50,932 nt of DNA from Candidatus Mediterraneibacter norfolkensis (lineage in GTDB: Bacteria > Bacillota > Clostridia > Lachnospirales > Lachnospiraceae): contig DWUT01000100.1 of the NCBI GenBank assembly GCA_019120615.1, forward strand, positions 1 to 50,932, read 5' to 3'. Positions 1 through 50,929 of this stretch are shown piece after piece (position 1 is the first letter of the stretch; the number at the start of each line of letters is the position of its first letter). The translations under genes and the position numbers were made by a program. The notes below the pieces were generated by a model. That model saw only the letters and a list, made by a program, of their open reading frames with translations. It had not been told where the DNA came from and did no database searches.

Positions 1-98
1 GATGTTTGGGTCTCACGCGACGGGAACCTGTGAACCGTGTCAGGTCGGGAACGGAGCAGCACTAAGCAGGAGCTCTCGGGTGCCGTGAGGGTGCCTGG
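1..98 (+). ncRNA. ffs: Signal recognition particle RNA (probably small bacterial type; ends approximate, may be truncated at the left edge)
   Basis: SRP domain IV-like core 'gtgtcaggtcgggaacggagcagcactaagcaggagc' (GTCAGGTC..GGAA..GGAGCAGCA) flanked by complementary arms (ctcacg / cgtgag). Confidence 0.8.
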
Positions 99-169
99 GC
101 TGAGTTAACTGCCGGGGTAACGCCTGTTAGCCAAGTTCGAAGCGCAATGCACGTAAAAAAAGAAAAAGT

Positions 170-6149: not shown

Positions 6150-6345
6150 GGTCTCAGTTCACACCTAACCGCCGCCCCATGCGCACTCGTCGCGCTGACG
6201 CGCTCCAGTCCCGCGCTTCGCGCTAAGACTGCTTATGTGGGCGGCGGTTACGAGTTCCACTCGTACTCGGGAATAGGGAAATGCCCCTTACATGCAAGCA
6301 TGACACTGCATTTCCCTATTCCCGAGTACGGTGTGAACTGTAACC
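6150..6345 (-). repeat. Structured interspersed repeat element, full copy A (terminal inverted repeats plus nested hairpins)
   Basis: TIR ggtctcagttcacacc (6150-6165)/ggtgtgaactgtaacc (6330-6345), 14/16 complementary; perfect 12-bp IR taaccgccgccc (6166-6177)/gggcggcggtta (6239-6250); hairpin acgagt-tcc-actcgt; perfect 21-bp IR gtactcgggaatagggaaatg (6263-6283)/catttccctattcccgagtac (6309-6329) with loop containing atgcaagcat. Confidence 0.85.
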
Positions 6346-6347
6346 GG

Positions 6348-7148
6348 TCATTGTCCCAGAATGTATTCCTCCAGCGTGCCCCCCTGCTCCGTGATCTCTT
6401 TTGCCGCCTCTTCTCCTACATAGCGATAGTGCCACGGTTCATAGATGATCCCCGTTATATCTGCCTTTTCCTCGGGATATCTCAGGATAAACCCATACTC
6501 CCAGCAATGTTCCATCAGCCATTTCTGTTCGTCCGTATCCCCCTGTCTGTCATCCAGTTCTTCATATTCAGAAGAAATGATATCCACTGCAAGCCCGGTG
6601 GCATGTTCACTGGCTCCTGGTACCGCAACGGATTTTTTTGTCTCATCATACGCATTCAATGGTGTGTATCCCCGGCTGATCCAGTCCTGCATCGTCGAGT
6701 TGAACACATCCCTCTGCTTGTCATAGGACCTGTACGCCGATGCAACGTACATGCTGAGCCCCGCTGCAGCCCCGTCGTCAAGCATATTCTGAAGACTTTC
6801 CGCAATTCGTGAATCCACTGACCTCTCGGAGTCGATCTCCGTTAGTTCCGCCGGCGTATACTCTGTGTCAAGGGGATGGCCTTCGTTCACAAGCGCAAGG
6901 CACCATCCGTCCGAATCTCCTGCCAGCAGTTCTGCGCTGTCCGTCACAGCGTCCACCTTGACCGCCTGCAGTGCCAACTCATCATTTGCCTGTTTCAGTT
7001 GTGCATTTTCCGCAGCGAGTTCTTCCTCCTGTCTCTCTATGACAGTCCTGGCTGCCACAAAGGTCACAAGCACTCCTGCCGCCAGACCAAACCCTGCTCC
7101 TGTCAGCAGTGTCCGTCTTGTTTTCGCTCTCTTGCTCTCACGTCTCAT
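6348..7148 (-). CDS. D-alanyl-D-alanine carboxypeptidase, VanY/M15B family, membrane-anchored
   Basis: 'SAYRSYDKQRDVFN...VAVPGASEHATGLAVDI...WLMEHCWEYGFILRYPEEKADITGIIYEPWHYRYVG' contains M15 zinc motifs (SEHxxGxAVD, EPWHYRYVG); N-terminal hydrophobic helix. Confidence 0.92.
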   Translation of the reverse strand: MRRESKRAKTRRTLLTGAGFGLAAGVLVTFVAARTVIERQEEELAAENAQLKQANDELALQAVKVDAVTDSAELLAGDSDGWCLALVNEGHPLDTEYTPAELTEIDSERSVDSRIAESLQNMLDDGAAAGLSMYVASAYRSYDKQRDVFNSTMQDWISRGYTPLNAYDETKKSVAVPGASEHATGLAVDIISSEYEELDDRQGDTDEQKWLMEHCWEYGFILRYPEEKADITGIIYEPWHYRYVGEEAAKEITEQGGTLEEYILGQ

Positions 7149-48669: not shown

Positions 48670-49698
48670 ATGAACGACAGAATCACACTGGACTACGGAA
48701 GCGGGGGACTGAAAACTTCAGAACTGATCGAGTCCCTGCTGGTCCCCGCTTTTGACAATCCGGCACTCTCTCAGCTCGGAGACGGAGCGCTCCTCGATGG
48801 AAGTAAAAAACTGGTATTTTCTACCGACAGCTTTGTCGTATCTCCCTGGAACTTCCCCGGCGGAGATATCGGAAAACTCTCGGTCTGCGGCACGGTAAAC
48901 GACGTGTGCATGGCAGGCGGCATTCCGAAATACTTAAGCCTGTCCTTCATTCTCGAGGAGGGATTTCTCTTCTCCGACCTCCGGCAGATCGTTGCCTCCA
49001 TCGCGGAAGAAGTCAAAAAGGCAGGCGTATCCATCGTCACCGGTGACACCAAGGTAGTGGACGCCGGAAAAGGCGACGGGATCTATATCAACACCGCCGG
49101 CATCGGATTTCAGCGGACTGATCTTCCCGGGAAAGCTGCCATCCGTCCGGGAGACGATGTGATCGTCAGCGGAACTGTCGGGTGCCACGGCGCCGCAGTC
49201 ATGATGGCACGTTCAGGTCTCCTCAGCGAAGATAACCCACTGCGTTCTGACTGTATGCCCCTGCACCGCATCTCCGCAGCAGCCCTTGACGCTGCCGTTG
49301 CAACTGCCGGCTCAGAAAGCGGCGCGGTCCGGATCCTGCGGGATCCCACCCGGGGCGGCGTCGCCACCACCCTGAACGAATTCACAGAGGGAATGCCCTT
49401 CTCCATCGAACTGAAGGAAAACGAAATTCCCATCGAGCCTGCCGTTGAGGCAGCCTGCGACATGCTGGGACTGGATCCGCTCTACTGTGCCTGCGAAGGA
49501 CGGATGCTGCTCGTCTGCGATCCCTCCGCCACAGAGGACATCCTGGAAGCGCTCCATAACGTCCCCGGCGGCGAAAACGCCGCCCGCATCGGAACCGTCA
49601 CCGAAGAAATGCCCGGCAAAGTCCTCCTGAAAACCCCCATCGGAGGCCGCCGCATCCTATCCAAACTAACCGGAATACAACTACCGAGGATATGTTGA
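48670..49698 (+). CDS. hypE: Hydrogenase maturation protein HypE (thiocyanate-forming, C-terminal PRIC)
   Basis: 'ITLDYGSGGLKTSELIESLLVPAF...DGALLDGSKKLVFSTDSFVVSPWNFPGGDIGKLSVCGTVNDVCMAGG'; ends in PRIC with terminal Cys. Confidence 0.96.
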   Translation: MNDRITLDYGSGGLKTSELIESLLVPAFDNPALSQLGDGALLDGSKKLVFSTDSFVVSPWNFPGGDIGKLSVCGTVNDVCMAGGIPKYLSLSFILEEGFLFSDLRQIVASIAEEVKKAGVSIVTGDTKVVDAGKGDGIYINTAGIGFQRTDLPGKAAIRPGDDVIVSGTVGCHGAAVMMARSGLLSEDNPLRSDCMPLHRISAAALDAAVATAGSESGAVRILRDPTRGGVATTLNEFTEGMPFSIELKENEIPIEPAVEAACDMLGLDPLYCACEGRMLLVCDPSATEDILEALHNVPGGENAARIGTVTEEMPGKVLLKTPIGGRRILSKLTGIQLPRIC

Positions 49699-49865
49699 TT
49701 ACAGCTCACTCGTGAGGCGATGCCCTGACAAATTTATGCTTGCATAAGGATTTGTCGGGGCGTCGTTTCACGAAGGGAGCGCCCGCTCATGAGCAAAGTA
49801 GCTGCGCAGCAGCGGGGAGCACCGCAGGTGCGTTTTGCGAATGGCGCGGGTGAGCTGTAATCAAC
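49694..49865 (+). repeat. Structured interspersed repeat element, full copy B
   Basis: Perfect 16-bp TIR gttgattacagctcac (49694-49709)/gtgagctgtaatcaac (49850-49865); 23-bp stem cgtgaggcgatgccctgacaaat (49711-49733)/atttgtcggggcgtcgtttcacg (49750-49772), four mismatches all G.U compatible; apical loop ttatgcttgcataagg. Confidence 0.85.
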
Positions 49866-49867
49866 CA

Positions 49868-50006
49868 GTCTGCCGTGCAGTAAAAAGAAGCCGGGATGTC
49901 ATATAAGCTCGCTTAAATATGGCATTCAGGCTTCTTTTTAGTATATGGCGGACGCCATACAGCGAGAAGGAGCCGTCAGGCGGATTCGAGCTGCTGCTCG
50001 GCAGAC
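49868..50006. repeat. Adjacent nested inverted-repeat segment containing a terminator
   Basis: Outer arms gtctgccgtgcag (49868-49880)/ctgctcggcagac (49994-50006), 12/13 complementary; internal tatggcggacgccata hairpin. Confidence 0.6.
49882..49939. terminator. Bidirectional Rho-independent terminator between hypE and the convergent gene
   Basis: aaaaagaagcc / ggcttcttttt perfect 11-bp outer stem with extended imperfect inner stem. Confidence 0.8.
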
Positions 50007-50017
50007 GGACGGTATTT

Positions 50018-50929
50018 CTACACTCCCAGTTCCCTTAGCAACTGTTCCTGATATTCCGGGTTTTCTGCTGCCTTAATAATATCATCCGTCCTTCCCAGTT
50101 CTGCCAGTTTCAGAACAAGCCTGCCAAATTCTTTGCGTCCCTTATCTTCTCCTGCCCGATAATTCTCCTGCAATTCTTCTGCAAATAATTCCTTTAATGC
50201 ATCACACATATTTTTCGCCTCCTCAAACTGCTGCCGATTTGCTCGAATTATAATATCCATTACTGCTTGATACAGCGTATTATCTTTATGCTTACAATAT
50301 TCTCTTACAAGTCGCTCCGCCTGTATCTCTCCTTCCAGATGATCGGTCAGATTTCTCAACCAAAGATTCTCTTCTTCCGAAAGTCTGTTTAGTAAAAGAA
50401 TTTGAATCGGTATGTAATCCCCGATAATATAATAAATTCCTTCTTCCATTTTCTGAATCGAGAATTTTCTTTTCTCTTTCAGATGACGAAAAAGTTTTTC
50501 CGGATACCTATGGCAGGCAAAAGTGATTGTTAAATCTTCAATGCCAATACTTTCTGAATTTCTTACATCCGATTTGTAAAAACATGCATAGCCGTACACT
50601 CTGTAAAAATCGTCTACGCTCAAAGTATCCGTCGGACTTTTATACTCCATGATATTATGCCCGCGAAAAATCCTTCCTATATTTTTCCTGATTCTCCGAC
50701 TTCCTTGTTTTTTAATGATCAGAAGATCAATCTGCTTCGGTTTTCTTCCAAGCTGATGCTCTCTTTCAAATGTCAGATCCCCGGCTGCTTCTTCCAATTC
50801 AATCTGCATCCCTGCGCAAAATGCCGGATGCCATTGGAGAATCCTCTTCACCGACACTTTTTCCTCCATTATCTTCTTCGCAGCTTTCCGGGGCATCTCC
50901 CGCGTAACTTCCGTACGCTTTTTTCCCAT
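50018..50929 (-). CDS. Uncharacterised PD-(D/E)XK-like (Rpn/transposase-derived nuclease-like) protein
   Basis: 'KPKQIDLLIIKK...GHNIMEYKSPTDTLSVDDFYRVYGYACFYK' resembles a D...(E)YK nuclease core; 303 aa, begins at the window edge. Confidence 0.6.
   Translation of the reverse strand: MGKKRTEVTREMPRKAAKKIMEEKVSVKRILQWHPAFCAGMQIELEEAAGDLTFEREHQLGRKPKQIDLLIIKKQGSRRIRKNIGRIFRGHNIMEYKSPTDTLSVDDFYRVYGYACFYKSDVRNSESIGIEDLTITFACHRYPEKLFRHLKEKRKFSIQKMEEGIYYIIGDYIPIQILLLNRLSEEENLWLRNLTDHLEGEIQAERLVREYCKHKDNTLYQAVMDIIIRANRQQFEEAKNMCDALKELFAEELQENYRAGEDKGRKEFGRLVLKLAELGRTDDIIKAAENPEYQEQLLRELGV

Follow-up and report, generated by a model that had tools for sequence, protein, structure and literature searches.

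What kind of sequence runs into the stop codon of hypE at positions 49694-49865 of the window (the whole 50,932-nucleotide stretch of DNA analyzed here): a structured RNA belonging to the hyp operon, or a mobile element inserted there? A preliminary description of the locus had listed a terminal inverted repeat (TIR), a stem with G.U-compatible mismatches only, a palindromic tip, small GC-rich hairpins and a hypE TGA inside the left TIR arm, and all of these features were found (Table 1). The TIR is perfect over 16 bp (49694-49709 and 49850-49865) and extends to 19 nt at 95%; it encloses a stem of 23 bp, whose four mismatches are every one G.T/U, with the tip TTATGCTTGCATAA, and the TGA, at 49696-49698, lies within the left arm. 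The + strand RNA has an MFE of -107.2 kcal/mol (z = -9.1) with 0 of 200 shuffles as good, and the - strand RNA one of -88.9 kcal/mol (z = -8.0), a fold far beyond chance. The conserved family end is 5'-GTA-ACAGTTCA, and because the empty site of the nearest relative (genome G037) reads ATATGTTAAACCAG, the outermost GTT and AAC are assigned to the host. The 16-bp perfect repeat is best read as the family TIR plus a target that was palindromic by luck.

Table 1. Features of the hypE-adjacent element and of its second relative, in window coordinates.
Feature	Position	Strand	Details
hypE	48670..49698	+	stop TGA supplied by element end
Left TIR arm	49694..49712	+	family end ACAGCTCA 49701-49708; outer GTT = host target
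Long hairpin	49711..49772	+	arms 49711-49733 / 49750-49772, four G.U; tip TTATGCTTGCATAAGG 49734-49749
Core domain	49779..49847	+	stem GCGCC 49779-49783 / GGCGC 49843-49847
Core internal loop	49789-49793 / 49838-49842	+	AUGAG / CGAAU; common to Clostridiales-1
Core inner parts		+	GCAAAG-type inner stem; small GC-rich hairpins GCTGCGCAGC 49801-49810 and GCACCGCAGGTGC 49819-49831
Right TIR arm	49847..49865	+	family end TGAGCTGT, consensus TGAACTGT-TAC; outer AAC = host
Second, diverged relative	6154..6341 (about)	-	ends ACAGTTCACACC...GGTGTGAACTG; tip CATGCTTGCATG; RNA z = -9.7

The second relative in the window has the same TIR type and tip as the hypE element with a different core; it starts a few bases past the stop of the ORF at 6348-7148 (-), with the ribosome-binding site of the next gene downstream, and it is probably the 'copy B' of the preliminary description. 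DNA similarity placed related sequences in 44 of the 58 genomes of the genus, and a covariance model built from 24 copies (R1, alignment A1) found copies in 51 of these 58 genomes (species), with up to at least 51 per genome (51 of 51 candidates scored), as well as in 44 of 250 genomes of the family taken one per genus, where counting was capped at 11 per genome; copies are few in the genome that the window comes from. The search for more copies suggested in the preliminary description thus returned dozens per genome. The element is ~164-165 bp long, multicopy and without an ORF, and no frame is conserved between copies, whose loop lengths differ by 1-2 nt. A leader peptide translated from the conserved ATGAGCAAA was considered and rejected, as these inner loop differences break any frame. 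Closely spaced or tandem copies occur, some of them truncated (L024, L033, L037, L145 and L162).

The boundaries of the copies point to transposition. When the flanks of 108 full copies from 23 genomes were compared from three nucleotides beyond the model ends outward, an 8-bp direct repeat was found to flank the copies, with an increase in identity at exactly eight positions; 25 of the 108 copies matched at 7 or more of the 8, compared with 0.6 on average, and never more than 4, in 500 shuffles. This target-site duplication (TSD) defines the element ends as 5'-GTAACAGTTCAGCC...GGCTGAACTGTTAC-3', with TIRs of 12-14 bp. IS66 ends start with GTAA and are accompanied by 8-bp repeats (PMC11946415). 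A search of the genus with PF03050 gave matches in 18 genomes and led to L229 in genome G047, a single-ORF IS of 1820 bp with a 485-aa IS66-type transposase, ends GTAACAGTTCAGCCTT / GTAACAGTTCACCCTT and a perfect TSD, CGAAAAAA. Its transposase scores 75.5 bits with PF03050, over the cut-off, and 145.6 bits with NCBIfam NF033517, below the cut-off of 180; the marks of an IS66 element, a DDE_Tnp_IS66 transposase, GTAA ends and an 8-bp repeat, are all present. Further IS66 transposase loci in the genus were rejected as partners, as only L229 among the 18 genomes with PF03050 matches has matching ends and a TSD.

Beyond the genus, a high-threshold search for this IS in 250 genomes of the family returned none, and viral contigs contained no relative of it. 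Public genome contigs yielded 16 IS loci, with relatives in Roseburia, Blautia, Eisenbergiella and other Lachnospiraceae; three of them (L247, L249 and L252) share the GTAACAGTTCAG ends of the MITE and are flanked by 8/8 TSDs, and L248 has a variant end. Fragments of the IS with the same end lie in two more MITE-bearing genomes, G094 and G296 (L321 and L322). The single-ORF elements L229, L247, L249 and L252, of 1.8-1.9 kb, encode a 485-aa transposase whereas the MITE has no ORF; they share with it identical terminal 10-14 bp and an 8-bp TSD. G047 is the only member of the genus with an intact IS, and its MITE copies are the most uniform, with a mean identity of 92.6% as against 76-84% in seven other sampled genomes with at least seven copies; the comparison used the best-scoring copies, which makes the MITE ages only relative. 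Two observations speak against an IS-driven origin: MITE and IS are alike in their terminal 10-14 bp only, with no internal similarity, and an intact IS is absent from most MITE-rich genomes. Nevertheless, because an IS66-family IS with the same ends and perfect 8-bp duplications exists, we consider that the MITE is most likely mobilized in trans by that IS66-type IS.

Of the identities offered in the preliminary description, the mobile, MITE-like structured element is therefore the one that held, with TIRs, an 8-bp TSD, dozens of copies and an empty site. The element is short, multicopy and non-coding, it has TIRs and a TSD of fixed length, and its ends are common to an autonomous element in the same hosts. 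The REP-like identity, also offered there, fits less well. Copies of a REP/BIME-type palindromic repeat, mobilized by a RAYT (Y1 tyrosine) transposase, would likewise be numerous, intergenic and hairpin-forming, and tandem copies would not be out of place, but REP sequences have neither TIR nor TSD. The TIRs with their 8-bp duplications, and ends in common with an IS66-family DDE element, make such an origin improbable in the extreme.

Does the element nevertheless have a dedicated role at hypE? The closest hypE, that of G037 (protein 94% identical), reads GGATATGTTAAACCAGTCTGCC, has a TAA stop and lacks the element, and the window reads GGATATGTTGATTACAG...CTGTAATCAACCAGTCTGCC at the end of hypE; since the empty allele ends in TAA and the occupied one in TGA, it is the end of the element that provides the TGA. 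The element is present at the hypE stop in G000, G011, G014 (truncated) and G056, and in G007 it is located past a first R2 repeat (described below) after hypE. These occurrences are what a vertically inherited, non-mobile cis-regulatory RNA acting as a 3'-UTR element of hyp operons would predict. However, among the 34 genomes that have hypE, just a few carry an element at this site; the closest relative has an empty site, as do most of the 30 hypE loci examined, and dozens of copies per genome lie at unrelated loci with TSDs. A dedicated hypE 3'-UTR function loses its support with this sparse occupancy, and a host cis-regulatory RNA, already refuted as a general account by the TSDs and the distribution of copies, seems to us very improbable. 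At hypE, no TSD is visible around the element, whose outer bases are aberrant, so this copy is old, eroded or came by recombination.

We give about as little credence to the element being the ordinary intrinsic terminator of the hyp operon. It lies where hypE ends and two convergent genes meet, as would be expected of a terminator, but no U-tract follows its hairpins, and a scan of 49500-50200 for a GC-rich stem with a U-tract returned no terminator-like site. By eye, the adjoining repeat R2, with an A-run and a T-run round a long hairpin, is the better candidate. R2 occupies 49866-50012 (+), right after the element, and consists of CAGTCTGCC, a hairpin with tip AAGCTCGCTT, and then ATATGGCGGACGCCATACAGCGAGAA, GGATTCGAGCTGC and GGCAGACGG; most of the 30 hypE loci examined have it behind the gene, at times in tandem, and it occurs elsewhere in the genus. 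Its layout is similar to that of the element, with an internal loop of the UGAGAA/UUCGAA kind, and it has no meaningful Rfam match. The convergent 303-aa ORF at 50018-50929 (-) matched no Pfam family.

The surroundings of the other copies likewise assign them no uniform position. The neighbor strands of 83 deduplicated copies were -- for 34, -+ for 27, ++ for 16 and +- for 6; between co-directional genes, 34 antisense against 16 sense copies amount to a modest orientation bias without a consistent sense UTR position. There is, however, a tendency for copies to adjoin stop codons: by rough gene calls, 11 of these 16 sense copies lie between -17 and +13 nt relative to the stop of the gene upstream, and insertion next to a stop would be tolerable because GTAACAG contains TAA. 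A general role as a 5'-UTR leader, considered for the -10-like boxes upstream of several copies, was dropped as a rule in view of the neighbor-strand counts.

If the ends are those of a transposon, what lies between them? A search with Rfam at the gathering threshold reported nothing at the hypE-adjacent locus, and the preliminary description had known of no named family. That statement no longer stands, because the span 49696..49863 (+) matches Clostridiales-1 (RF01699) over model positions 1-166 of 166 with 37.8 bits (E-value 8e-7 on 501 bases, from E-value output), below the Rfam gathering threshold of 48 bits. Three other copies score 26-33 bits and the copies of the family overall 26-46 bits; in the reverse direction, R1 hits coincide in position and strand with 17 of 28 canonical RF01699 loci, with a best E-value of 1e-8. 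The two RNAs have in common an outer stem, a long variable hairpin with a palindromic tip, the AUGAG/CGAAU internal loop (possibly closed by tandem G.A pairs, as we read the alignments), many copies in the same bacterial family, a more stable + strand, and a TIR and direct repeats as bounds. They differ in the outer stem (ACAGTTCA in the element, TGATGCC in Clostridiales-1), in the length of the duplication (8 bp and 5 bp, respectively) and in an extra 3' hairpin ending CATCA, which the element lacks (157-160 positions versus ~166 + 28). With a full-length match below the cut-off and these shared features, the RNA domain is, judged from sequence and predicted structure, a diverged relative of Clostridiales-1 and not a member.

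Clostridiales-1 was described as a probable RNA, not cis-regulatory, from Clostridiales and the human gut (Weinberg et al., 2010, PMC2864571), and we found no functional study of it in the open literature. Of 250 genera sampled within the family, 133 have canonical RF01699; outside the family it is present in 1 of ~190 genomes of a class-wide sample. The canonical copies (L290-L319 and L045-L073) extend beyond the Rfam model by a second hairpin, whose terminal CATCA complements the left TGATG, and an exact 5-bp direct repeat flanks 17 of the 32 copies with a placeable end, on the basis of coordinates (shuffled mean 1.3, maximum 7 over 1000 shuffles). The Rfam model therefore appears to end short of the mobile unit, and the known RNA family also looks like transposon cargo. 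Canonical Clostridiales-1 thus itself appears to lie within a mobile element with other ends and another duplication length, so that related RNA folds would ride at least two transposon chassis.

Is the fold maintained as RNA? In A1, a structure of 44 pairs has 96.4% of its cells paired, with double-sided changes in 24 of the 44 pairs and a covariation score of 0.374, compared with 0.127 for shuffled alignments and at most 0.09 for slid partners. The long hairpin differs in sequence among copies, with compensatory changes; among 65 non-redundant long hairpins, 69 G.U stand against 15 A.C mismatches (p = 2e-9), and RNA of the + strand folds more stably than that of the - strand in 40 of 45 copies of the MITE type and in 33 of 34 canonical RF01699 copies. 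Covariation, whose absence would have refuted the preliminary description, is very strong, and the suggestion made there of selection at the RNA level gains support from the strand-specific excess of G.U over A.C. These data support selection on the folded + strand as RNA, and we infer that this strand is transcribed.

Covariation of this kind could also arise at the DNA level, if the two arms were homogenized, while the DNA replicates or transposes, by repair templated on the hairpin (quasi-palindrome correction) and the RNA itself had no function. Of all parts of the element, the long hairpin varies most (identity between copies of 67-78%, against 81-86% for the core, in most genomes) and yet stays self-complementary, as template-switch correction would leave it, and strand-biased deamination could imitate part of the G.U/A.C asymmetry. 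What such a process would not predict is an excess of G.U on one defined strand, the greater stability of + strand RNA in most copies of both families, and a conserved, non-palindromic internal loop common to RF01699. We regard a purely DNA-level origin as unlikely.

Taken together, we consider it highly probable that the hypE element is a ~164-bp IS66-ended MITE, amplified in trans, that carries a + strand-selected RNA domain related to RF01699. In this scenario, a single-ORF IS66-family transposase would recognize the GTAACAGTTCAG ends of its own IS and of the MITE, insert the latter with an 8-bp duplication, mostly in intergenic regions or at gene ends, and in this way would have amplified it in trans within the genus. 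Between the ends, the TIR would form the outer stem, followed by the long covarying hairpin with its ATGC..GCAT tip and the AUGAG/CGAAU core; canonical RF01699 copies would travel on another chassis, with TIRs TGATG..CATCA and 5-bp duplications. The + strand fold might make insertions within or between operons tolerable, or might tune the stability of flanking transcripts, and in the window the hyp transcript would have the element as its 3' end. Modulation of the stability of flanking transcripts, as has been argued for ERIC and NEMIS (review, PMC2229807), would perhaps be the most economical function. Going a step further, Clostridiales-1-type RNA might be a selfish module, present in at least two chassis, whose + strand RNA aids mobility or shields host transcripts; this we entertain tentatively, leaning somewhat against it. 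If it were true, an ncRNA that is an orphan in Rfam would be cargo of transposons and not a host gene.

Structured MITEs are known from other bacteria. Compared by features and not by sequence homology, the element resembles ERIC/IRU, Correia/NEMIS and RUP in being shorter than 200 bp, with a TIR, a TSD, intergenic location and a strongly foldable RNA, and differs from them in hosts, ends, TSD and partner IS family. For RUP, common ends had led to the proposal of IS630-Spn1 as the partner IS (PMC2229807), the same logic as we apply here. Unlike these elements, the one described here has a fold that shows covariation throughout a bacterial family and that groups with an orphan RNA of Rfam. Clostridiales-1, 'probable' since 2010, would thereby be recast as probable mobile-element cargo: together with its diverged sister family, it is bounded by TIRs and TSDs, has many copies and reaches roughly half the genera sampled in the family. 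The question would then move from which host process a small RNA serves to why mini-transposons keep a folded RNA, and, with an IS66 transposase named as partner, mobilization becomes directly testable. For annotation, insertions of this kind supply stop codons, UTRs and spacers in many gut-bacterial operons.

Two minor observations may be added. Plasmid records gave no match to the element, and seven unannotated 'Bacteriophage sp.' records from human feces, 4-20 kb long (MT836949, MT839102, MT836794 and four others), match it in part, with 76-83% identity over 30-85% of the query. At its other end, the window carries a bacterial small SRP RNA at positions 4-103 (+) (RF00169, 69.9 bits).
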